From Dyella terrae (lineage in GTDB: Bacteria; Pseudomonadota; Gammaproteobacteria; Xanthomonadales; Rhodanobacteraceae), in NCBI RefSeq assembly GCF_004322705.1, contig NZ_SIZZ01000003.1, positions 62,001 to 126,000 on the forward strand: a stretch of 64,000 nt of DNA. The letters are read 5' to 3'. Positions within the stretch are counted from its first letter, which is position 1, and every line of letters begins with the position of its first letter. The notes under the pieces are model-generated. The model worked only from the letters and a program-made list of their open reading frames with translations, was not told the origin of the DNA and ran no database searches. Position numbers and translations under genes: made by a program. Below, one piece after another: positions 49,357-62,249 of the stretch.

Positions 49357-50931
49357 TCAGGTCGGCTCACTCCGGAGCAGCAGCGCATAGGCCGGATGCA
49401 TGCTTTCATCGCGGCAGGGATAACCCAGGCCCTCGACAAACCGTGCGAACAACGAGCGCTCATGCCGGGGCACCTGCAAGCCCACCAGGATGCGCCCATA
49501 GTCCGCGCCTTGGTTGCGGTAATGGAACAGGCTGATGTTCCAGTCCGGGTGCATCCGCGCAAGGAAGCGCGTCAGGGCTCCGGGCCGCTCGGGAAATTCG
49601 AAGCGATAGAGCAACTCGTCGTGTGCCAGCGCCGAGCGACCGCCGATCATGTGGCGAAGGTGCAGCTTCGCCAGCTCATCGTCCGTCAGGTCCAGCACGC
49701 CGAATGACTGCGCGCGGAACGCAGCGGCAAGCGCCTCGCGCTCTTCCCGGCTGCGGATTTGGATGCCGACAAAGATATGCGCCTGCGAGGCGTCGCTGAT
49801 CCGGTAGTTGAATTCCGTGATTGAGCGATCGCCGAGTGCCGCGCAGAAGCGTCGGAAGCTACCGCGTTCTTCGGGGATCGTGACGGCGAACACGGCTTCC
49901 CGCTGCTCGCCGACTTCGGCGCGCTCGGCGACGAAACGCAGGCGGTCGAAGTTGAGATTGGCGCCAGAGACCACGGCGGCATAGGTTTCGCCAGCTCCGT
50001 GGCGGCTCGCTGCATAAGCCTTGAGGCCGGCCACGGCGAGCGCACCGGATGGCTCAGGCACGCTGCGTGCATCCTGGAAAACATCGCGCATCGCCGCGCA
50101 GATCGCATCCGTATCCACGCGTATCACGGCATCCACATGGCGCTGGCATAGCGCATACGTCAGTGCGCCCACTTGCTTGACGGCGGTGCCGTCGGCGAAC
50201 AGGCCCACTTCATGCAGAACGACGCGGGCCTTGGTGTCGAGCGATTGCGCCATGGCGTCGGAATCGATGGCCTGCACCCCGATGATCTTCACCTCGGGAC
50301 GAATTGCCTTGACATACGTTGCCATGCCGGCGATCAGGCCACCCCCGCCGATGGGCACGAACAACGCATCAAGCCGGCCCGGATGCTGGCGCAGGATCTC
50401 CATGGCCACCGTGGCCTGGCCGGCGATGACGGCTTCGTCGTCGAACGGATGCACGAACGTCATGTCGCGCGCCTGGCAAAGTCGGTTCGCCTCGGCCTGG
50501 GCATCGCTGTAGGAATCGCCGGCCAGCACGACCTCCACCCATTCGCCGCCCAACTGCCTCACCGCGTCCACTTTGACCTGTGGCGCCGTGGCGGGCATGA
50601 CGATGACGGCATGCATGCCGAGCCGTGCCGCACCGAGCGCCACGCCCTGCGCATGATTGCCCGCCGACGCTGCAATGACCCCGCGCGCACGCTCCTGTGG
50701 CGATAGCCCGACCATCTTGTTGTATGCACCGCGCAGCTTGAAGGAATGCACGGGCTGCTGATCCTCACGCTTCAGCAGCACGGTCGCACCAAGGCGCTCA
50801 GAGAGTGCCGGGGCCACGTCAAGCGAGGTTTCGCGCGCGACGTCATACACGCGTGCCTCCAGGATGCGGCGCAGCCAGGCGTGGTCGTCGGCGAGCGCCG
50901 GGCTTGCCGTGGCGAGCGCCGCCGCGTTCAT
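49357..50931 (-). CDS. ilvA: Threonine dehydratase, biosynthetic (IlvA)
   Basis: The 524-residue PLP enzyme converts threonine to 2-oxobutanoate, the first committed step to isoleucine. PLP Lys is in [11 protein letters not shown], the phosphate-binding loop in IGGGGLIAG, and [10 protein letters not shown] contacts the substrate. Two C-terminal ACT-like regulatory domains (about 335-420 and 430-515: [30 protein letters not shown]) mark the isoleucine-inhibited biosynthetic type. The start overlaps the ilvM stop by 4 bp. It is the last gene of the leu-ilv operon; the BP74-like gene converges one base away, leaving no room for a terminator. Confidence 0.97.
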
Positions 50932-51176
50932 GCGGCGAGTTCTTCTGCCGGATGACTCACGTCGATGACGTCGACCAGCTTGCGCGTCTGCTTGATCAGC
51001 TGATCCACCGATTCGTCGGCACCGTGCATGACCAGCGTGAGCCGCGACACCGCCGGATCCTGCGTGACGGCGACATTCAGCGAGTCGATGTTGAAGCCGC
51101 GCGCGGAAAACAGGCCGGCGACGCGAACCAGTGCGCCCGCCTCGTTCTGCAGAAGGATGGAAAGCGTGTGCTTCAT
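50928..51176 (-). CDS. ilvM: Acetolactate synthase small (regulatory) subunit
   Basis: The 82-residue ACT-domain protein has [20 protein letters not shown] and [18 protein letters not shown], the pattern of acetolactate synthase regulatory subunits. Length is close to E. coli IlvM and half that of IlvN/IlvH. It pairs with the large subunit encoded 12 bases upstream and may carry feedback control by valine or by other end products. The stop overlaps the ilvA start. Confidence 0.92.
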
Positions 51177-51188
51177 GGCTGTCTCCGC

Positions 51189-53036
51189 TCAGAACATGTG
51201 GGTGGGTGAGTCGCCGGGTGCATCGGCTTCATGGCGGGCAGCAATGAAATCCCCGGTGATCATCTGTGCATAGGTCGCACCCGGGCCCACCATGGGGTAC
51301 ACGCCGGCATCCGGATCGATCATCACTTCAAGGAAGGCCGGGCCCGGATGGGCGAGGAAGTCAGCGACGGTATCGGCGAGCTCTTCCTTGCGCTCGAGCC
51401 GCCGCGCCCACTCGAAGCCATCCGCCTGCGCGGCCTTGATGAAATCCTTGCGGTGCAGGCTTTTGTCGGACGACGCAAAGCGGCCCCGGAAGAACAGCTT
51501 CTGCCACTGCCGCACCATGCCGTCGCCCATATTGTTGAGCACGACAATCTTCACCGGCAGGCCGTACGTGGTCACGGTTTCGAGCTCGCCGAGATTCATG
51601 CGGATGCTGGCGTCGCCATCAATATCGATGACCACGGCATCGCGGCGCGCGAACTGTGCACCTATGGCCGCCGGCAGGCCGAAACCCATCGTGCCCATCG
51701 AACCGGAACTCAGCCAGTGGCGCGGCTCGCGGAAGTCGAAGTACTGCGCCGCCCACATCTGGTGCTGGCCGACGCCCGTGCTGATGATGGCGTGGCCGCG
51801 CGTGTGGCGGTTGATGGCCTCGATCACGGCATAAGGCTGGATCAGGGCGCTGTCGCGGTCGTAATCCAGCGCGTGATCGCGCTTGAGGGTGGCGATGTGC
51901 GCATGCCACTCGTCGAAGCGACGGCTGACGCCATGGGCAACCGCCCAGACGGCCAGCCGATCGAGCGCATGGGCCAGGTCGCCGTTGTGATGCCAGTGGA
52001 CCGCCTTCACCTTGCCGATCTCGGCCGGATCGATGTCGATCTGCGCGATGAACTGCGCGTTTGGTGCAAACTTCAGTGGCACGCCCGCCACGCGATCGTC
52101 GAAGCGCGCGCCAAGCGCGAACAGGAAGTCGCAATCCTCCACGGCGTAGTTGGCATAGGCCGTCCCGTGCATGCCCAGCATGTGCAGGGCCAGCGGCTCG
52201 GTGGTGTCGTAAGCGCCCAAGCCCATGAGCGTGGTGGTGACCGGCATGCCCAGTTGCTCGATGAAGCGGCGGAGTTCGGCAGCCGCGCCGGAAGCGATGA
52301 CGCCACCGCCCGCGTAGATCAGCGGTCGTTTCGCGCGTGACAGCGCGTCAAAGAACGCGGTGCAGGCAGCATCATCCAGACGCGACTGTTCCAACGTTGC
52401 CAGTCGCGCCCGATAGCCGGGCATGGGCAGCGTGCCCTCGCCGCGAAAGGCGAGAGGCGTGTTCTGTACGTCCTTGGGAATATCCACGACGACCGGTCCC
52501 GGTCGCCCGCTGCGCGCGATCTCGAACGCGGTGCGAATCGTGTCCTCCAGCTTGCTGGCATCGGTCACGAGGAACACGTGCTTGGCGCAGGCGCTCATGA
52601 TGTTGCTGATCGGCGCCTCTTGAAACGCATCGCTGCCGATGGCCGACGTCGGCACCTGGCCGCAGATGACCACCATGGGAATGGAGTCGGACATCGAGTC
52701 GCGCACCGGCGTCACCATGTTGGTCGCGCCCGGGCCCGACGTGACGATGGCCACGCCAACCTTGCCGGATGCGCGCGCATAACCGGCGGCCATGAAGCCC
52801 GCGCCCTGTTCATTCGCCGGCACGATCAAGGGCATCGGCTCGCCACCAAGCGGGCTCAGGTGCGTGGCGTTGTAGCGGAATACCGCGTCGTACACGGGCA
52901 GGATGGCGCCACCCGAATAACCGAAGAGCACGTCGACGCCTTCGTCGGCGAGCACCTGCACCACCACTTCCGCACCGGACATCGGCTGCGCGTTGAGCGG
53001 GTGGGCGGTGATGCGTTCTGCGTGCAAGGCGGTCAT
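51189..53036 (-). CDS. ilvG: Acetolactate synthase large (catalytic) subunit
   Basis: The 615-residue TPP/FAD enzyme makes 2-acetolactate (valine/leucine) and 2-aceto-2-hydroxybutyrate (isoleucine). GAEVVVQVLADEGVDVLFGY starts the Pyr domain with catalytic Glu in NEQGAGFMAAG. The TPP site is DIDGDASIRMN followed by VVLNNMGDG, and SSGSMGTMGFGLPAAIGA precedes it. ATG 53036 was chosen over a further in-frame ATG upstream at 53099, which would add a non-conserved Ser/His-rich tail. The gene follows ilvC after a 94-base gap with a strong hairpin, the second longest gap in the operon. Confidence 0.96.
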   Translation of the reverse strand: MTALHAERITAHPLNAQPMSGAEVVVQVLADEGVDVLFGYSGGAILPVYDAVFRYNATHLSPLGGEPMPLIVPANEQGAGFMAAGYARASGKVGVAIVTSGPGATNMVTPVRDSMSDSIPMVVICGQVPTSAIGSDAFQEAPISNIMSACAKHVFLVTDASKLEDTIRTAFEIARSGRPGPVVVDIPKDVQNTPLAFRGEGTLPMPGYRARLATLEQSRLDDAACTAFFDALSRAKRPLIYAGGGVIASGAAAELRRFIEQLGMPVTTTLMGLGAYDTTEPLALHMLGMHGTAYANYAVEDCDFLFALGARFDDRVAGVPLKFAPNAQFIAQIDIDPAEIGKVKAVHWHHNGDLAHALDRLAVWAVAHGVSRRFDEWHAHIATLKRDHALDYDRDSALIQPYAVIEAINRHTRGHAIISTGVGQHQMWAAQYFDFREPRHWLSSGSMGTMGFGLPAAIGAQFARRDAVVIDIDGDASIRMNLGELETVTTYGLPVKIVVLNNMGDGMVRQWQKLFFRGRFASSDKSLHRKDFIKAAQADGFEWARRLERKEELADTVADFLAHPGPAFLEVMIDPDAGVYPMVGPGATYAQMITGDFIAARHEADAPGDSPTHMF

Positions 53037-53081
53037 GTGCTGAGTGTTTCCCTGGTTGGCATGAGTGGTTCTGGCGTGGCA

Positions 53082-53118
53082 CGAAGCGGGAGACAGCATG
53101 GCCGTGGCTCCCGCTTCG
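53082..53118 (-). other. Strong hairpin in the ilvC-ilvG gap
   Basis: CGAAGCGGGAG and CTCCCGCTTCG form a perfect 11-bp stem with a 15-base loop, between the ilvC stop and the ilvG start. No T-run follows on the transcribed strand. It may be an mRNA processing or stability element that sets different levels for the two parts of the operon. Confidence 0.65.
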
Positions 53119-53130
53119 ACCGGTACGGCG

Positions 53131-54150
53131 TCAGCCCACCTTCTTCAATGGCTCGGCGGCGGCTTTCGGTGCGTTAGCCTGCAACCAGGGCATCCGCGCA
53201 CGGAGCTTCGCGCCCACCTGTTCGATCGGATGATCGAGGTCGGCCTGCTTCAGGCGCTTGTAGTTGGGCAAGCCCGCCTGGTACTCGGCGATCCAGTTGC
53301 GGGCGAAGGTGCCGTCCTGGATATCGGTGAGCACGCCCTTCATGCGCTCCTTGGTGGCGGCGTCCACGACGCGCGGGCCGCTGACATAGTCGCCGTACTG
53401 CGCCGTCTCGGAGACAAACTCCAGCATGCGCGCGATGCCGCCTTCGTAGAACAGGTCCACGATGAGCTTCAGCTCGTGCAGCACTTCGTAGTACGCGATC
53501 TCCGGCTGGTAACCGGCTTCCACCAGGGTCTCGAAACCGGCCTGCACCAGCGCGCTGGCGCCGCCGCAGAGCACGGCCTGTTCGCCGAACAAATCCGTTT
53601 CGGTCTCTTCCTTGAAATCGGTCTTGATCAGCAGCGCGCGACCGCCGCCAATGCCGTCGGCATACGCCTTGGCCTTGGCTTCCGCCTCACCGCTGACGTC
53701 CTGGTGCACAGCCCAGATGCACGGCACACCACGACCGATCTCATATTCGCGACGCACGAGAGCGCCCGGGCCCTTGGGCGCCACGAGGATCACGTCGATG
53801 TCGGCGCGCGGTGCGATCTGGCCGAAGTGCACATTGAACCCGTGGGCGAACAACAGCGCGGCACCCGGCTTGATGTTCGGCTCGATCGACTCGCGATACA
53901 GCGACGGCTGCACCATGTCCGGGGTGAGCACGGCGACGAGATCGGCGCCGCGCACGGCGTCGCCCGGCTCGGCCACGTTGAAGCCTTCGGCCTTGGCGCG
54001 CTCCCAGGAGGGGCCGCCCTTGCGCAAGCCAACGATGACGTCCAGGCCGGAGTCGCGCAGGTTCAGCGCATGTGCGCGGCCCTGGCTGCCGTAACCAAGC
54101 ACGGCAATGCGGGCATCGGCCAGCGTCGGGTGGGAGGTGTTGCTGCTCAT
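53131..54150 (-). CDS. ilvC: Ketol-acid reductoisomerase (class I)
   Basis: The 339-residue enzyme isomerises and reduces acetohydroxy acids with magnesium and NADPH. The nucleotide motif [13 protein letters not shown] and loop [12 protein letters not shown] (with a Ser for the 2'-phosphate) suit NADPH. The catalytic His is in [14 protein letters not shown]-adjacent HGFN, and the acidic metal ligands are in [13 protein letters not shown] and [18 protein letters not shown]. Short (class I) length fits. The stop-start relation with ilvD is a 4-bp overlap. Confidence 0.97.
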
Positions 54151-55853
54151 GCGGTGACTCCTTCGTTATCGGTGACGTGTTGGCGTTGGGAGGTGCTGAC
54201 GTGGGTATCGGGATGCGTGGTGGCGCCGTCGGAAGCGGAGCCCACAAGTCGTGCGTATTTGGCGAGCGCGCCGCGCGTGACCTTCGGCGCCGGTGGTGAC
54301 CAGTGGCGGCGGCGATCGACGAGGTCGGCGTCGGTATCGATCTCGCGCGTGCCCGCGTCGATGCGGATGCGATCGCCATCGCGCAGCAGGGCAATCGGCC
54401 CGCCGCGTGCGGCTTCCGGCGAGATATGACCGACCATGAAACCGTGCGTGGCGCCGGAGAAGCGGCCGTCGGTGATCAGGGCAACGTCGTCGCCGAGACC
54501 GCGACCGATCAATGCCGCCGTGACGCCGAGCATCTCGCGCATGCCGGGGCCGCCGGCCGGGCCTTCGTTGCGGATGACCAGTACGTCGCCCTTGCGGATG
54601 CTGCCGCCCTGCACGGCGGCAAAGGCCTGTTCTTCACTTTCGAAGACGCGTGCCGTGCCTTCGAAGTGGCTGGTGCCCTTGCCGGCGAGCTTGAGAATGC
54701 AGCCTTCCGGGGCGAGGTTGCCGTAGAGGATGGAGTAGCCGCCACGCGGCTTGATCGGTTGCGCGACCGGCAGAATGACGTTCTGTTGTTCGGCGCGCGG
54801 TGCCGCTTCAGCTTCTTCGAACAGGCTTCGACCCGTGACGGTCGGTGCATCGTCCAGCATCCCGGCGGCGATCAGTTCCTGTGCGACGCGCGCACTACCA
54901 CCTGCGCCGAACATCTCGACGGCGGTATAGCGGCCGCCAGGCAAGAGATCCGCAATCACCGGCGTGTGCTTCGAGGCGGGTTCGAAATCCTCCAGCGTCC
55001 AGGATGCGCCGGCTTCGCGTGCGATGGCGAGCAGGTGAAGTACGGCATTGGTGGATCCGGCCGTGGCGGCCACCATGCGCGCCGCATTGCGCAGCGACGT
55101 GCGATTGATCAGCGCGCGCGGCGAGCGTTGCTGCGCCAGGCATTCCATCACCAGCTCGCCGCAACGACGCGCGGCAGCTGCCTTTGCCGGATGCGTGGCG
55201 GGAATGTCGTTGAAGCCCATAGGGGACAGGCCCAGCGTCGTCAGCACCATCGCCATGGTATTGGCGGTGAACTGGCCGCCGCAGGCACCGGCACCGGGGC
55301 ACGCATCGCGCTCGACCGAAGCGAGTTCGGCGTCGTCGATCTTGCCGGCGCCATGCGCGCCGACGGCTTCGAACACCTGCTGCAAGGTGATTGGATGATT
55401 GTCGTGCGTCCCGTGCGCAATGGTGCCGCCGTAAAGCGCCACCGCCGGGATATCGAGGCGCGCCATGGCCATCGCGGCGGCGGGGATGGTCTTGTCGCAG
55501 CCGCACAGCACCACCATCGCATCGAGGCAGTGGCCGTCGACGGCCAGCTCGATCGAATCGGTGATCACCTCGCGACTGATCAGCGAGGCGCGCATGCCCG
55601 GTGTGCCCATGGCGATGCCGTCCGTCACCGCGATGGTGTTGAACTCGATCGGCGTACCACCGGCAGCACGAATGCCCGCCGACACATGTTCGGCCAGTTC
55701 GCGCAGGTTGAGGTTGCACGGGCTGACGTTCGACCAGGTATGCACCACCGCCACCAGCGGCTTGGCGATGTCCGCGTCGTCCAGGCCAGTGGCGCGCATC
55801 ATGGCGCGTGCAGGTGCGCGGTCCGGGCCGCTCTTGATCAGGTCACTGCGCAT
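54147..55853 (-). CDS. ilvD: Dihydroxy-acid dehydratase
   Basis: The 568-residue iron-sulphur enzyme removes water from dihydroxy acids in the valine and isoleucine branches. The cluster Cys residues are in [23 protein letters not shown] and [16 protein letters not shown], with [17 protein letters not shown] near the C-terminus. A His/Thr-rich tail of about 25 residues after [14 protein letters not shown] goes beyond the usual end and overlaps the ilvC start. It follows leuB after the longest gap in the operon (184 bases), which also contains a hairpin. Confidence 0.97.
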
Positions 55854-56037: not shown

Positions 56038-57135
56038 TCAGCCGCACGCGCGCGCGCCGCAGAAGAAGGCTTCGGCGTTGGCAACGTGTTCGTCGAGTGC
56101 GGCGATCACGGCGTGGCGAATGTCGGTGGTACCCGCGTGGCCGCCGATGTCACGCGTGTGCGGGCCGTGCTCCAGCACCTGTGCCACGGCGGCTTCGACG
56201 TGGGCCGCTTCGTCTTCCAGGCCCAGCGAGTGACGCAGCAGCATCGCGGCGGAAAGGATGGCGCCGGTGGGGTTAGCCACGCCCTTGCCGGCAATGTCCG
56301 GGGCGGAGCCGTGGATGGGCTCGTAGAGGCCCCGCGAGCCTTCGCCAAGCGAGGCCGACGGCAGCAGGCCCAGCGAGCCGGCGATGGCGGCGGCTTCGTC
56401 TGTGAGAATGTCGCCGAAGAGGTTCTCGGTGACCACGACGTCGTAGTAGCCCGGCTGGGTCAGCAACAGCATGGCCATGGAATCGACCAGCTGGTGCTCC
56501 AGCTTCACGTCCGGGTATTCGGCGGCGATGCGCTGCACCGTGCTGCGCCACAGGCGCGAGGTTTCCAGCACGTTGGCCTTGTCGACCGAGGTGACATGGC
56601 GGCGACGTTCGCGCGCCAGCTCAAAGGCGCGGCGCGTGACACGCTCGACTTCGGCGACGGTGTATTTGCATTCGTCGGTCGCGGTATCGGGCGTACGCGT
56701 TTTCGCGCCGAAATAGGCGCCACCGGTCAGTTCACGCACAAACAGCACGTCGACGTGGCGCAGCTTGTCTTCCTTGAGCGGCGACAGCGCGGCCAGTGCC
56801 GGATGCACGTTGAGCGGGCGCAGATTGGCGTAGACGCCCAGCGCGGCGCGCAGCGCCAGCAGACCCTGTTCCGGGCGCACCGGGGCCTGCGGATCGGACC
56901 ACTTCGGTCCGCCGACAGCGCCCAGCAGCACCGCATCGGCTTGCTGGCACGCCTTGAGCGACGCGTCGGGCAACGGCGAACCCGTGGCATCGATGGCGCA
57001 GCCGCCGATCAGGTGTTCCTCGAACGCAAACTCATGATCGAAGTGCGCGGCAACAGCCTGCAGAACAGCAACGGCAGCGGCGGTGACTTCCGGACCGACG
57101 CCATCGCCGGGCAGGGTGACGATACGGGCTTTCAT
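56038..57135 (-). CDS. leuB: 3-isopropylmalate dehydrogenase
   Basis: The 365-residue NAD-dependent decarboxylating dehydrogenase of leucine synthesis shows [33 protein letters not shown], the substrate Arg/Tyr region [13 protein letters not shown], and [20 protein letters not shown] with the metal-binding Asp residues. [17 protein letters not shown] is the conserved signature. The start overlaps the leuD stop by 4 bp. Confidence 0.98.
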
Positions 57136-57716
57136 GCGGCTTGCTCCTGGTGCGATTCATAGCGGGAGATGGCGTCGGCGTGTTGCAGCAGATAGCCGAG
57201 CTGATCGACGCCGTTGAGCAGGCAATGGCGCGCGAAGGGTTCGAGCTGGAAGGCAATGCGGCCGCCGTCGGGCAGGGCGATGTACTGGCCTTGCACGTCG
57301 ATGGTCAGCTCGATGCCGGGATGGCCCAGCAGCCAGCGGTGTTCGGCGTCGGAGATGACGATGGCGAGCAGGCCGTTCTTCAGCGCGTTGTTGCGAAAGA
57401 TGTCCGCGATCTCGCTGCACAACACCGCTTGGATGCCGTCGTCGAGTAGCGCCCATGGGGCGTGTTCGCGCGAGGATCCGCAGCCGAAGTTGCGGCCGGC
57501 GACAAGGATCGAGCAACCCCTGGCTTGCGGCTGGTTCAGCGGAAAGGCCGGGTTGTCACTGCCGTCCGGCAGATAGCGCCAGTCGTTGAAGCAGCGCTTG
57601 CCGAGGCCTGCGCGTTGGGTGGTGGTGAGGAAGCGCGCCGGGATGATGCGATCGGTGTCGATGTTTTCGTCGGCGAGGACGGCCGTGCGTGAGTGGAGGC
57701 GGGTAACGGGGCGCAT
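57132..57716 (-). CDS. leuD: 3-isopropylmalate dehydratase small subunit
   Basis: The 194-residue subunit of the isomerase has [27 protein letters not shown], the swivel-domain signature [15 protein letters not shown] and [11 protein letters not shown]. The start at 57716 has GGAG about nine bases ahead and gives the normal N-terminus; an upstream extension to 57809 would overlap the leuC end and is unlikely. It follows leuC by 52 bases and overlaps leuB by 4 bp. Confidence 0.96.
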
Positions 57717-57768: not shown

Positions 57769-59181
57769 TCATGCCGCCACCTCCGCCAGGTATTCGCGCG
57801 GATCGGCAATCCGCCCGGCGATCGCGGACGCGGCCGCCGTCGCGGGACTGGCCAGCACCGTGCGCGCGCCCTTGCCCTGGCGACCTTCGAAATTGCGGTT
57901 GGAGGTACTCACCACCAGCTGGCCCGGCTGCGCCAGGTCGCCGTTCATGGCAATGCACATCGAGCAACCCGGCACGCGCCATTCGGCGCCAGCGTCGGCA
58001 AACACGTGATGCAGGCCTTCGTGCTCCGCCTCGCGACGCACGGCTTCGGAGCCCGGCACCACCAGCATGCGCACGCCCTGCGCCACGCGACGGCCACGCA
58101 GGATGTGGGCTGCTTCGCGCAGGTCGGAAAGGCGCGAGTTGGTGCAGCTGCCGACGAAAACCACGTCGACCGGCGTGCCCTGCATGGCCTTGCCCGGCTG
58201 CGCCTGCATATAGGCCAGCGCGCGTGCATCGAGCGCGGACTGTGCGGCGGGGACCGGCGCGTCGATGGCGATGGCCATGCCCGGGTGGGTTCCGTAGGTG
58301 ACCGTCGGGCGGATCCTGCTGGCGTCGATGTGCACTTCGCGATCGAAGCTGGCACCGGCATCCGTATGCAGCGTGCGCCACCGGGTGACGGCGGCATCCC
58401 ACGCTGCACCCTTCGGCGCGCGGTCACGTCCCTTGAGCCAGTCGAAGGTGACATGGTCGGGCGCGATCAGGCCGGCGCGCGCGCCGGCTTCGATCGACAT
58501 GTTGCACACCGTCATGCGTTCTTCCATCGACAAGGCTTCGACGGCTGCGCCACGATATTCGATGACGTAACCGGTGCCGCCGTCGACGCCGATGCTGCCG
58601 ATGATGTGCAGGATCAGGTCTTTCGCTCCCACGCCCGCCGGCAGCTGCCCGTCGACATGGATCGCCAGGGTTTTCGGCTTGCGTTGCAGCAGGCACTGCG
58701 TCGCCATTACGTGGCCGACTTCCGTCGTGCCGATGCCGAAGGCCAGCGCGCCGAAAGCGCCGTGAGTGGAAGTGTGGCTGTCGCCACAGACGATGGTCAT
58801 GCCCGGTTGCGTGGCGCCCAGTTCCGGGCCGATCACATGCACGATGCCGCGATCGCTGCTGTCCCAGCCATGCAGTTCCACGCCGAACTCACGGCAGTTG
58901 GTTTCCAGCTGCGCGACCTGGGCTTTCGCCTCGTCATTGGCGTAAGGGCGTTCGCCCTGCGCATTGGCCGGCAAGGTCGGCGTCGAATGATCGAGCGTGG
59001 CGAGCATGCGATCGGGGCGGCGCAGCTTCAGGCCACGATCGCGCAACTCGCTGAAAGCTTGCGGCGAGGTGACCTCGTGGACGAGGTGCAGGTCGATGTA
59101 GAGGACGGCTGGCGTGTCGTCGGTTTCGGCGGCGACGACGTGGGCGTCCCAGATCTTTTCGAACAGCGTGCGGGGGGTCAT
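57769..59181 (-). CDS. leuC: 3-isopropylmalate dehydratase large subunit
   Basis: The 470-residue aconitase-family subunit carries the 4Fe-4S cluster. Cys ligands are in [12 protein letters not shown] and [27 protein letters not shown] and [22 protein letters not shown] are family marks. With LeuD it converts 2-isopropylmalate to 3-isopropylmalate. The start overlaps the ilvE stop by 4 bp, so the leuA-ilvE-leuC junctions are all coupled. Confidence 0.97.
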
Positions 59182-60167
59182 GCGGTGGCTCCGATCGAAG
59201 CGGTTTGTGCGATGGCGCGGCCGTGGAAGGTCGAGGCGCCCTGGTTCTCACCCGCGTCGATGGCGCTGAGCCAGCCCCAGCGATCGTCGGTGCGTCCGTC
59301 GAACAAGCCAAAGAAGGCGTCCTGCAGGGCGCGCGTGACCGGACCGGGCTTGCCGCCGCCGACGGCCTTGCGATCGACCGAGCGCACCGGCGTGATCTCT
59401 GCGGCGGTGCCGGTCATGAAAACTTCGTCAGCGGTATAGAGCGCTTCGCGCGGCAGATCGCGTTCCTCGACCTTGATGCCGAGATCGTCTGCCAGCGTCA
59501 TCACGGTGTCGCGGGTGATGCCGGCAAGGATGCCCGCGCTGGTGGGCGGTGTTAGCAACTTGCCTTGCTTGACGATGAAGACATTCTCACCAGCACCTTC
59601 GCTCAGCAGTCCGTTATGGCCGAGCGCGATGCCTTCGGCGTAACCGCCGCGACGCGCTTCGAGGCCGATCAGCTGGCTGCTGAGATAATTGCCGCCCGCT
59701 TTGGCCCAGCTCGGCACGGTGTTCGGTGCGGGGCGTTGCCACGACGACACGCAGACGTCGGCGCCGTGCTCGCGTGCGTCGCCGTGATAGGCGCCCCACT
59801 CCAGCGCCATGATCGCGACGTCCACCGGATCGCCCGCCTTGGGCAGCACGCCCAGGCCGCCGGCGCCGCGGAACACGATGGGGCGCACATAGGCCGAGCC
59901 CATGCGATTGGCACGGATCACGTCGAGGCAGGCGGCGTTGATCTCATCTTCGGTGTAGCCGATGTCGATTTCGTACACGCGCGCGGATTCGAACAGGCGG
60001 CGCGTGTGGTCGGCGAGGCGAAAATAGGCGGGGCCTTGCGGCGTCGCGTACACGCGCTCGCCTTCGAAGACCGAGGAACCGTAATGCAGCGCATGCGTGC
60101 TGACGTGGACGGTGGCTTCGGTCCAGGGTTTGATGTGGCCGTTGTGCCACAGGAAGGGCGTAGTCAT
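59178..60167 (-). CDS. ilvE: Branched-chain aminotransferase
   Basis: The 329-residue fold-IV PLP enzyme makes the final transamination to leucine, valine and isoleucine. [20 protein letters not shown], the PLP Lys in [14 protein letters not shown], and the phosphate-binding [12 protein letters not shown] and [13 protein letters not shown] are present. It sits between leuA and leuC with 4-bp overlaps on both sides. Length is slightly above E. coli IlvE (309). Confidence 0.96.
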
Positions 60168-61744
60168 GCGGCGGCTCCTTGCGAGACGGACGCCGAAGGC
60201 GCCAGTCGTTCAATGCGATTGACGATGCCCAGCGCGGCGAGTGCGGTGGCTTCGACGATGTCGGTGCTGACGCCGTGGCCGCTCCAGTCGCGCTTGGCGT
60301 GACGAGCGGTGAGCGCGGCCTGGCCTTGCGCATCCCCGCCTTCGCTGACGGCGCGGATGTGGAACTCGGTCAGCTCCAGCGAGGTGCCGGTGGCGCGTTC
60401 CATGGCGCGCAACACGGCATCGACCGGGCCATCGCCAATCGCCGCTTCGCCAATCTCGCGGCCATCGTCATGCACCATTTTCACCGTGGCCGACGCGCTG
60501 CCGCCCCAGTGCGAATTGGCGTGCAGTTGCACGATGTGCCATGGGCCGGCGGCTTCCGGATCCTGGCCCAGCGCGATGGCTTCGAGGTCTTCGTCGTGGA
60601 TCTCGCGCTTCTTGTCGGCCAGTGCCTTGAAGCGCGCGAAGATGTCGTCCATCGCGGCATCTTCGGGCTGGTGGCCCAGGGCCTGCAGGCGCTGACGCAA
60701 GGCGTGGCGGCCGGAATGCTTGCCCAGCACCAGGCGCGTTTCGCCAATGCCCACGTCCTGCGGATGCATGATTTCGTAGGTGCCGCGGTGCTTGAGCATG
60801 CCGTGCTGGTGGATGCCCGACTCGTGCGCGAAGGCGTTGTCGCCTACGATGGCCTTGTTGCGTGGCACGGCCTGGCCGGTGAGTTGGGTCAGCAGGCGCG
60901 AGGCCGGATACAGCTTGCGCGAGTCGATGCGCGTGCCGGTCTGGAAGTACGGCTCACGCACGCGCAATGCCATGACGATTTCTTCCAGTGATGCGTTGCC
61001 CGCGCGCTCACCGATGCCGTTGATGGTGCATTCCACCTGGCGCGCCCCTGCTTTCACCGCGGCCAGGCTGTTGGCGACCGCCATGCCTAAGTCATCGTGG
61101 CAATGCGTGGAGAAGATCACGCGCTCGGCGCCCTTCACGTGCTGGCGCAGATAGGCGAAGAGCTGCTCCATTTCCGCTGGCGTGGTGTAGCCGACGGTGT
61201 CCGGTGCATTCAGCGTGGTGGCACCGGCGGCAACCGCAGCGCTGAACACCTCCGCGAGAAATTCCGGCTCGGTGCGCAGCGCGTCTTCGGCGGAAAATTC
61301 GACTTCGTGGCAAAGGCCGCGTGCACGTTCGACGGCGGCGACGGCGGTGTCCAGCACCTGGGCCTTGCTCATGCCCAGCTTGTGTTCGCGATGCAGCGGG
61401 CTGGTGGACAGGAACACGTGGATGCGCGAATGGCGGGCCCGCTCCAGTGCGCGCCCGGCGGTTTCGATATCGCCTTGCTGGCAGCGGGCGAGTGCGCACA
61501 CGGTGGGGACGGTGAGCGTGCGCGCAATCTCGGCCACTGCAGCAAAGTCATCCGGCGATGCCTGCGGAAAACCCGCCTCCAGCACGTCGACGCCCAGCGC
61601 CTCGAGCATGTGGGCCATGCGCAGTTTGGCGCGTCGGTCCATGGCGAAGCCCGGTGCCTGTTCGCCATCGCGAAGCGTGGTGTCGAAGATGCGTACGCGA
61701 TCTTCGCTGGAGTTATCGCTGCCGTGCTGTTCCGGGTTTTTCAT
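60164..61744 (-). CDS. leuA: 2-isopropylmalate synthase
   Basis: The 526-residue enzyme condenses acetyl-CoA and 2-oxoisovalerate, the first step to leucine. The catalytic barrel shows VRIFDTTLRDGEQAPGFAM, metal ligands in STHCHDDLGMAVANSL, and NAFAHESGIHQHGML. The C-terminal regulatory domain (about 390-520) is present, so leucine feedback is expected. ATG 61744 follows GGAG at eight bases and lies 33 bases after the attenuator stem. It is the first structural gene of the operon. Confidence 0.98.
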   Translation of the reverse strand: MKNPEQHGSDNSSEDRVRIFDTTLRDGEQAPGFAMDRRAKLRMAHMLEALGVDVLEAGFPQASPDDFAAVAEIARTLTVPTVCALARCQQGDIETAGRALERARHSRIHVFLSTSPLHREHKLGMSKAQVLDTAVAAVERARGLCHEVEFSAEDALRTEPEFLAEVFSAAVAAGATTLNAPDTVGYTTPAEMEQLFAYLRQHVKGAERVIFSTHCHDDLGMAVANSLAAVKAGARQVECTINGIGERAGNASLEEIVMALRVREPYFQTGTRIDSRKLYPASRLLTQLTGQAVPRNKAIVGDNAFAHESGIHQHGMLKHRGTYEIMHPQDVGIGETRLVLGKHSGRHALRQRLQALGHQPEDAAMDDIFARFKALADKKREIHDEDLEAIALGQDPEAAGPWHIVQLHANSHWGGSASATVKMVHDDGREIGEAAIGDGPVDAVLRAMERATGTSLELTEFHIRAVSEGGDAQGQAALTARHAKRDWSGHGVSTDIVEATALAALGIVNRIERLAPSASVSQGAAA

Positions 61745-61776: not shown

Positions 61777-61809
61777 AAAAAAACCCCGCATCCTGTTCGG
61801 TGCGGGGTT
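61777..61809 (-). terminator. Attenuator terminator upstream of leuA
   Basis: On the minus strand AACCCCGCA and TGCGGGGTT form a perfect 9-bp stem, loop of 10 bases, followed directly by seven T. It lies between the leader peptide stop (61856) and the leuA start (61744). The 5' arm region CCCCGCACC is also complementary to GGTGCGGG at 61860-61867 at the end of the leader, so the two structures exclude each other. Confidence 0.93.
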
Positions 61810-61855
61810 CTTTGGTCGTATTCAGGTGATTTTTGCTTTACCTGGACACACGCCC

Positions 61856-61993
61856 TCAGCCCGCACCTCCGTTGGTAATAAGGAGTACGAGTACAAGGGC
61901 AAGAAGGAGGTTGTTGCGAAGTCGCAGCAGGCCGCGATTCGACGGCGGTCGAATCTTTTCGGTGGTGCTGAAGTGGTTGGTGCGCTGCGACAT
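61856..61993 (-). CDS. leuL: leu-ilv operon leader peptide (45 codons)
   Basis: A short frame begins at ATG 61993 with AGGG eight bases upstream and ends TGA at 61856-61858. Residues 29-40 are L-L-L-A-L-V-L-V-L-L-I-T: seven Leu, two Val, one Ile. All the Leu codons are CTC or CTT and none is CTG, Val is GTA and Ile is ATT, rare choices in this GC-rich genome. A stalled ribosome at these codons leaves GGTGCGGG (61860-61867) free, while a ribosome at the stop codon covers it. This is the defining layout of ribosome-mediated attenuation, here sensing all three branched-chain amino acids. The gene was recognised from these features, not from a database. Confidence 0.9.
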   Translation of the reverse strand: MSQRTNHFSTTEKIRPPSNRGLLRLRNNLLLALVLVLLITNGGAG

Positions 61994-62001
61994 GCAACCG
62001 A

Positions 62002-62050
62002 CCCTAAAGGCTCCCCGAGTGGCGTGTCAACAGTTTCTTGTGAAATTATG
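62002..62050 (-). promoter_or_regulatory. Candidate promoter(s) for the leu-ilv operon
   Basis: Two candidates lie upstream of the leader. CATAAT at 62050-62045 (minus strand) is a good -10 that would give a ~45-base untranslated leader, but its -35 is poor. TTGACA at 62030-62025 is a perfect -35 with a weak TAGGGT at 18 bases, which would put the start at the leader ATG. The first is preferred because it keeps the AGGG ribosome site. Confidence 0.4.
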
Positions 62051-62117
62051 AGAAAAAGTTTTGGCCGATCACATTTGGACGTCCAGATGGCTGAATGCGT
62101 CGACGTCAAAGCAGGCA

Positions 62118-62155
62118 CCTCTTCGCGCGCGCGTACGCGAGGGCGCGCGAAGAGG
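62118..62155. other. Very stable hairpin in the leuA-yecD-like divergent gap
   Basis: CCTCTTCGCGCGC and GCGCGCGAAGAGG form a perfect 13-bp stem, and the loop contains the palindrome GCGTACGC. It lies upstream of both divergent units, so it cannot terminate either. It may be a DNA-level structure, a binding site or a relic repeat. Confidence 0.5.
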
Positions 62156-62249
62156 GCTTAGAACCTTTTGTGCATGAAGAATGTTTCACGGGCCATGGAC
62201 CCTGCCAGAAGCCCATAATTGAGCGTTTTCAACGCTCTGGAGGCCCCCG

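Follow-up and report, generated by a model that had tools for sequence, protein, structure and literature searches.

The attenuators of ilvGMEDA and leuABCD in Escherichia coli and Salmonella combine a leader ORF rich in branched-chain amino acid (BCAA) codons with mutually exclusive antiterminator and terminator structures, and BCAA genes follow downstream. E. coli, the best-known gammaproteobacterium, has few leaderless mRNAs. Leaderless leader peptides have been reported in mycobacteria, and those of ilvL, leuL and trpL in Streptomyces lividans are also transcribed leaderless (PMC8079986). We analyzed a 64,000-nucleotide stretch of Dyella terrae DNA (the window), in which an initial annotation had placed an attenuator sensing Leu, Val and Ile ahead of a ten-gene operon. 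As judged from the sequence, a ribosome-mediated transcription attenuator with a leaderless leader peptide very probably controls this leuA-ilvE-leuCDB-ilvDC-ilvBM-ilvA operon.

The leader ORF and the operon

The leader ORF consists of 45 codons and a TGA stop at 61856-61993 on the (-) strand, the strand of all leader, promoter and operon features given below, and translates as MSQRTNHFSTTEKIRPPSNRGLLRLRNNLLLALVLVLLITNGGAG followed by the stop. Residues 29-40, LLLALVLVLLIT, hold 7 Leu, 2 Val and 1 Ile, encoded by CTC/CTT, GTA and ATT. Both the 45-codon frame and this block had been annotated initially, and both were confirmed by direct translation. The sensor codons 29-39 (CTC CTT CTT GCC CTT GTA CTC GTA CTC CTT ATT) occupy 61877-61909. 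No other ORF of up to 70 codons on either strand of the 64 kb carries 10 L/I/V per 12 residues, and no in-frame ATG, GTG or TTG was read between codon 1 and the sensor codons. The block had also been described as written in rare codons. This holds for CTT, GTA and ATT, which make up 7% of Leu, 2% of Val and 14% of Ile codons in the 12 long genes of the window, but not for CTC, which accounts for 25% of the Leu codons in those genes (58% are CTG) and is therefore not rare.

The requested search of relatives for the same leader before leuA found it, together with the terminator, in 73 distinct Rhodanobacteraceae sequences drawn from loci fetched with LeuA. By LeuA (86%), the genome of the window is closest to Dyella. 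The frame is conserved as the annotation had supposed, with length, frame and stop position all kept: the ORF has 45 codons in 55 of the 73, and the stop codon varies (TGA 50, TAG 16, TAA 7) while its place is constant. CTG makes up 3/435 Leu codons in the last 17 codons of these leaders vs. 116/218 in the rest of the same ORFs, and in the same 17 codons GTA accounts for 136/167 Val and ATT for 106/112 Ile codons. The sensor codon bias is thus kept in relatives. Selective tRNA charging theory agrees with the codon bias of attenuator leaders (PMC1183508). Over the last 13 sense codons, positions 1 and 2 (0.15 bits each) are more conserved than position 3 (0.38), as expected of translated sequence.

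Downstream, NCBIfam models identified leuA (2-isopropylmalate synthase, 60164-61744) as the first structural gene, then ilvE (59178-60167, overlapping leuA), leuC (57769-59181, overlapping ilvE), leuD (57132-57716), leuB (56038-57135, overlapping leuD), ilvD (54147-55853), ilvC (53131-54150, overlapping ilvD), the large subunit of an acetolactate synthase of ilvB/ilvG type (51189-53099), its small subunit of the short ACT, ilvM-like type (50928-51176) and ilvA, a biosynthetic threonine ammonia-lyase (49357-50931, overlapping the preceding gene). Five junctions have a 4-nt overlap; the largest gap, 184 nt before ilvD, is the likeliest place for an internal promoter. The genome holds one strong match to the leader model. 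Given the overlaps between genes and this single strong match, it is likely that one leader serves all ten genes, in support of the initial annotation, and internal promoters are possible. Between 49100 and 61830 a scan found 10 terminator-like sites, close to the number in shuffled sequence (mean 7.5, sd 2.4); on the operon strand, every such site falls within a gene. A look upstream of trpE and hisG in this genome showed no other attenuators. Before hisG (L200, ~1150-1480) there is an ORF that, named by eye, encodes a small TrpR/YerC-like (HisR-type) regulator, and no His leader peptide.

Of 300 genomes searched in the order, 217 gave a match to a covariance model (E <= 0.01), although the weakest matches may be other terminators; some of the 83 genomes lacking a match are incomplete. 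Closer reading of individual loci showed leuA, ilvC, ilvD or ilvB downstream, and one locus where the nearest recognized gene is ilvE. The leader precedes ilvC in the Xanthomonadaceae Stenotrophomonas daejeonensis, Lysobacter silvestris, Thermomonas beijingensis and Pseudoxanthomonas broegbernensis, and ilvD in a Thermomonas MAG. Two genomes carry a second leader at a second BCAA operon. A class-wide model search returned a few related leaders outside the order, and these are not leaderless in appearance. Three loci from other gammaproteobacterial families (L191, L192 and L193) combine short Ile/Val-rich leader ORFs with a CCCCGCACC terminator arm that resembles the one here. Some of them seem to carry a Shine-Dalgarno site, such as CAGGAG before the L193 ATG, and they are possibly distant relatives.

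Promoter geometry and the start of the leader

A -35 box, TTGACA, can be read directly at 62025-62030, and the pattern in relatives identifies TAGGGT (TANNNT) at 62001-62006, 7 nt before the leader ATG, as the -10 box. From this geometry, the predicted transcription start is the A of the leader ATG (61993), with an uncertainty of ~2 nt. All 73 Rhodanobacteraceae leaders share the arrangement of TTGAC, a 17- or 18-nt spacer, TANNNT, 6-8 nt and ATG. Across the order, 137 of 139 loci have a TTGAC whose last base lies 29-32 nt upstream of the ATG, a spacing that has no place for a Shine-Dalgarno site. For 40 of these 139 loci, promoter geometry guided the choice between in-frame ATGs; as a control for those 40, the geometry occurs at 4 of 795 other ATGs. 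The base preceding the ATG is C in 72/73 Rhodanobacteraceae leaders and in 130/139 loci of the order. In loci from other families, the -10 frequently departs from TANNNT. A Shine-Dalgarno-like 4-mer lies upstream of the leader ATG in only 7 of the 73. The leader peptide thus appears to start at the first RNA base, with a promoter placing the start at the start codon and no Shine-Dalgarno site, a reading drawn purely from geometry.

A strict sigma-70 promoter scan upstream of the leader returned no match, because the -10 is only TANNNT. The complete leaderless promoter pattern occurs twice in the genome, once at this leader. The other occurrence (L185, G000:C1:1520609-1520647) coincides with the ATG of a gene that, judged by eye, encodes an ArsR-type HTH regulator. 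Within the window, a long GC-rich inverted repeat (CTCTTCGCGCGC..GCGCGCGCGAAGAG) spans 62117-62160, between the leader promoter and a divergent gene.

Codons 2-7 (61973-61990) are CA-rich and T-poor, a composition that may enhance leaderless initiation; in relatives, the 18 nt after the leader ATG are 45% C, 30% A and 5% T and are conserved relative to codons 8-26. Leaderless translation is enhanced by CA repeats after the start codon (PMC9031893). In these codons the third position has 0.42 bits, and the first two 0.26 and 0.52.

Alternative structures, stall model and competing explanations

An upstream ORF with a run of end-product codons is followed, before the first gene, by an intrinsic terminator. 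The latter is formed by region 3 (AACCCCGCACC, 61799-61809), assigned from sequence, fold and co-variation, and by region 4 (TGCGGGG) with its T7 tract (61777-61790; T7 at 61783-61777). Its fold has an energy of -20.7 kcal/mol (z -6.8), in agreement with the GC stem and T7 annotated at 61777-61809. The terminator on the leader strand, which has a bulge, was missed by the terminator scan. A terminator between leader and first gene is kept in 73/73 relatives. Terminators with a short T tract, such as GGGGTTTCGCGTTT, were seen at L148, L160, L166, L167 and L168 and were missed by the first terminator rule.

Region 3 also serves as the 3' arm of the antiterminator, whose 5' arm is region 2 (GGAGGTGCGGGC, 61859-61870), the last four sense codons of the leader, assigned from its co-variation with region 3. 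GGTGCGGG (61867-61860) in region 2 and CCCGCACC (61806-61799) in region 3 are exact reverse complements, so the annotated complementarity between the last leader codons (61860-61867) and the terminator 5' arm is correct. The annotation had called for RNA folding of the leader: the entire leader folds with z -4.5, and a fold made without the terminator 3' arm contains the GGTGCGGG/CCCGCACC pair (-30.5 kcal/mol).

We then asked how regions 2 and 3 vary together at 139 loci across the order, with region 3 sorted into 11 types by 8 bases of the arm. Paired with its own region 3 type, region 2 gives -17.2 vs. -15.0 kcal/mol (sd 0.47) with permuted types; none of 20000 permutations was as low, although the permutation takes no account of phylogeny and so does not yield a strict probability. 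In 6 of the 11 rows, no other type does better than the native one. Matched changes between families include the GGTGCGGG/CCCGCACC region 2/3 pair, GGTAGCGGG/CCCGCTACC with a matched one-base insertion in most of 10 loci, and GGAGCGGG/CCCGCTCC in 4 loci from three families, one of them bulged. Synonymous recoding of region 2 weakens the 2:3 pair from -17.9 to -13.9, and the native pair is stronger in 118 of 125 loci. The alternative structures are conserved in relatives, as the annotation had required. Co-variation, recoding and the masking model described below point to an antiterminator that uses one of the terminator arms and becomes unavailable once a ribosome reaches the stop codon.

In the masking model, applied to the 73 Rhodanobacteraceae sequences, a ribosome hides the A-site codon together with 15 nt on its upstream and 12 nt on its downstream side; because these dimensions follow general knowledge, the exact edge may lie one codon away. 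When the A-site is placed between stop-18 and stop-7, 99-100% of the sequences form an antiterminator of 5 bp or more ahead of region 4 synthesis. The share drops to 1% at stop-6 and to zero at later codons. The run of BCAA codons extends from stop-17 to stop-7, where 72/73 leaders have Ile. In the model, sensor codons 29-39 are the stall positions that free region 2: a stall at any Leu, Val or Ile codon does so, while a stall at the next codon, Thr 40 (stop-6), largely fails. That the leader reads all three amino acids, as first proposed, is plausible for this reason. With the A-site 19-26 codons before the stop, some 2:3 pairing occurs in 41-67% of sequences. At equilibrium the terminator is always preferred in the full transcript, so antitermination must be kinetic. 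In ilvC-type leaders (L164, L165, L149-L152, L162 and L163), the ORF extends several codons past region 2, ending in ..TGAGRTGV before the stop, so region 2 would be left uncovered by a ribosome that has reached the stop codon.

We propose that RNA polymerase would begin transcription on the A of the leader ATG, give or take ~2 nt, and that the ribosome would therefore have to load on a 5'-terminal AUG. With sufficient charged Leu, Val and Ile tRNA, it would reach the stop codon inside region 2 and mask that region, and regions 3 and 4 would form the terminator. On a stall at the Leu, Val or Ile codons 29-39, region 2 would stay free and pair with region 3 before region 4 is made; this 2:3 pairing would pre-empt the terminator, and the operon would be read. 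Sequence and comparison show the parts of the switch, their conservation, the co-variation of regions 2 and 3 and the match between sensor codons and stall window; we infer the transcription start, termination, an amino-acid response and control of all ten genes by one leader.

A 1:2 pairing is possible in the leader fold. As a selected protector hairpin it was rejected, the native value being -14.9 vs. -16.0 for synonymous recodings. An untranslated leader may therefore read through. It is a tentative and rather doubtful extension that all of this gammaproteobacterial order runs its BCAA pathway through a leaderless attenuator. Translation of leaderless mRNAs relies on 70S particles and differs in its response to initiation factors and stress, so such a switch would sense initiation state as well as tRNA charging, and with no 1:2 protector it would by default be ON, not OFF, when untranslated.

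The same attenuator could lie on a conventional leadered mRNA that starts further upstream and recruits ribosomes weakly or independently of a Shine-Dalgarno site. The weak TAGGGT box and the failed strict promoter scan would suit such an arrangement, but we consider it improbable: the -35 and -10 keep a fixed distance from the ATG in 73/73 leaders, and the -35 does so in 137/139, while the spacer varies; the scarcity of Shine-Dalgarno-like 4-mers (7/73) also speaks against it, as do the related leaders outside the order, which look leadered (L193 with its CAGGAG). Slightly less probable again is that the small ORF encodes a functional peptide, or that the terminated short RNA acts in trans, with attenuation secondary. 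The N-terminal MSQRNSH is conserved in Rhodanobacteraceae, and Sinorhizobium peTrpL has a trans role (PMC7298713). Against this, the third position of codons 2-7 is not freer than the first two, which points to a constraint at the nucleotide level; a GAG to GSG change at the C-terminus accompanies the change in region 3, and the N-termini differ in other families.

Finally, the hairpin is strong enough as a terminator by itself that it might simply end an upstream transcript, the Leu/Val-rich ORF being fortuitous. This we find very hard to credit, since the ORF co-varies with the terminator arm, its sensor codons avoid CTG unlike its N-terminal part, and the element remains at BCAA operons even where a different gene comes first. 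An attenuator with a leaderless leader peptide is thus the reading we prefer.

Comparison with known attenuators

No Rfam family matches the leader at gathering or relaxed thresholds: Leu_leader (RF00512) scores 15.7 bits against a gathering score of 50, and Thr_leader (RF00506) 21.8 bits against 55. Among open-access papers we found no report of a leaderless attenuator in gammaproteobacteria and nothing relevant on a Xanthomonas ilvC leader peptide; an earlier Xanthomonas attenuator prediction is possible. Vitreschak et al. (2004) is reportedly a comparative paper on proteobacterial attenuators. The leader would give the order of Xanthomonas, Lysobacter and Dyella a clear, testable BCAA regulatory element that is absent from Rfam, and a case of attenuation apparently working from a leaderless start in gammaproteobacteria. 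It also provides well over a hundred natural variants that differ in leader codons, in RNA pairing and in the gene at the head of the operon.

Leaderless leader peptides for BCAA genes liken this locus to ilvL and leuL of Streptomyces lividans, an actinobacterium whose BCAA peptides have 12-15 aa and whose leuA leader was reported without a typical terminator (PMC8079986). Sinorhizobium meliloti trpL (rnTrpL/peTrpL) is, like this locus, proteobacterial and its RNA starts with the leader ATG, but it concerns tryptophan and a 14-aa peptide in an alphaproteobacterium (PMC7298713). A BCAA leader peptide and a terminator/antiterminator choice are shared with Corynebacterium glutamicum ilvBNC and Mycobacterium tuberculosis ilvB1NC, which are ilvB-type operons only; the C. 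glutamicum peptide is short (MTIIRLVVVTARRLP) (PMC11857589, PMC13236596).

The three-part enteric layout invoked by the initial annotation stands for the terminator, the antiterminator and the leader codons. The likeness is incomplete because the leader looks leaderless and no selection on the 1:2 hairpin is apparent. As in enteric ilvGMEDA and leuABCD, BCAA codons in a leader ORF, an exclusive antiterminator and terminator, and BCAA genes downstream occur together; unlike there, the leader seems to lack an untranslated 5' region, the 1:2 protector has no support, and one leader precedes leu and ilv genes together.
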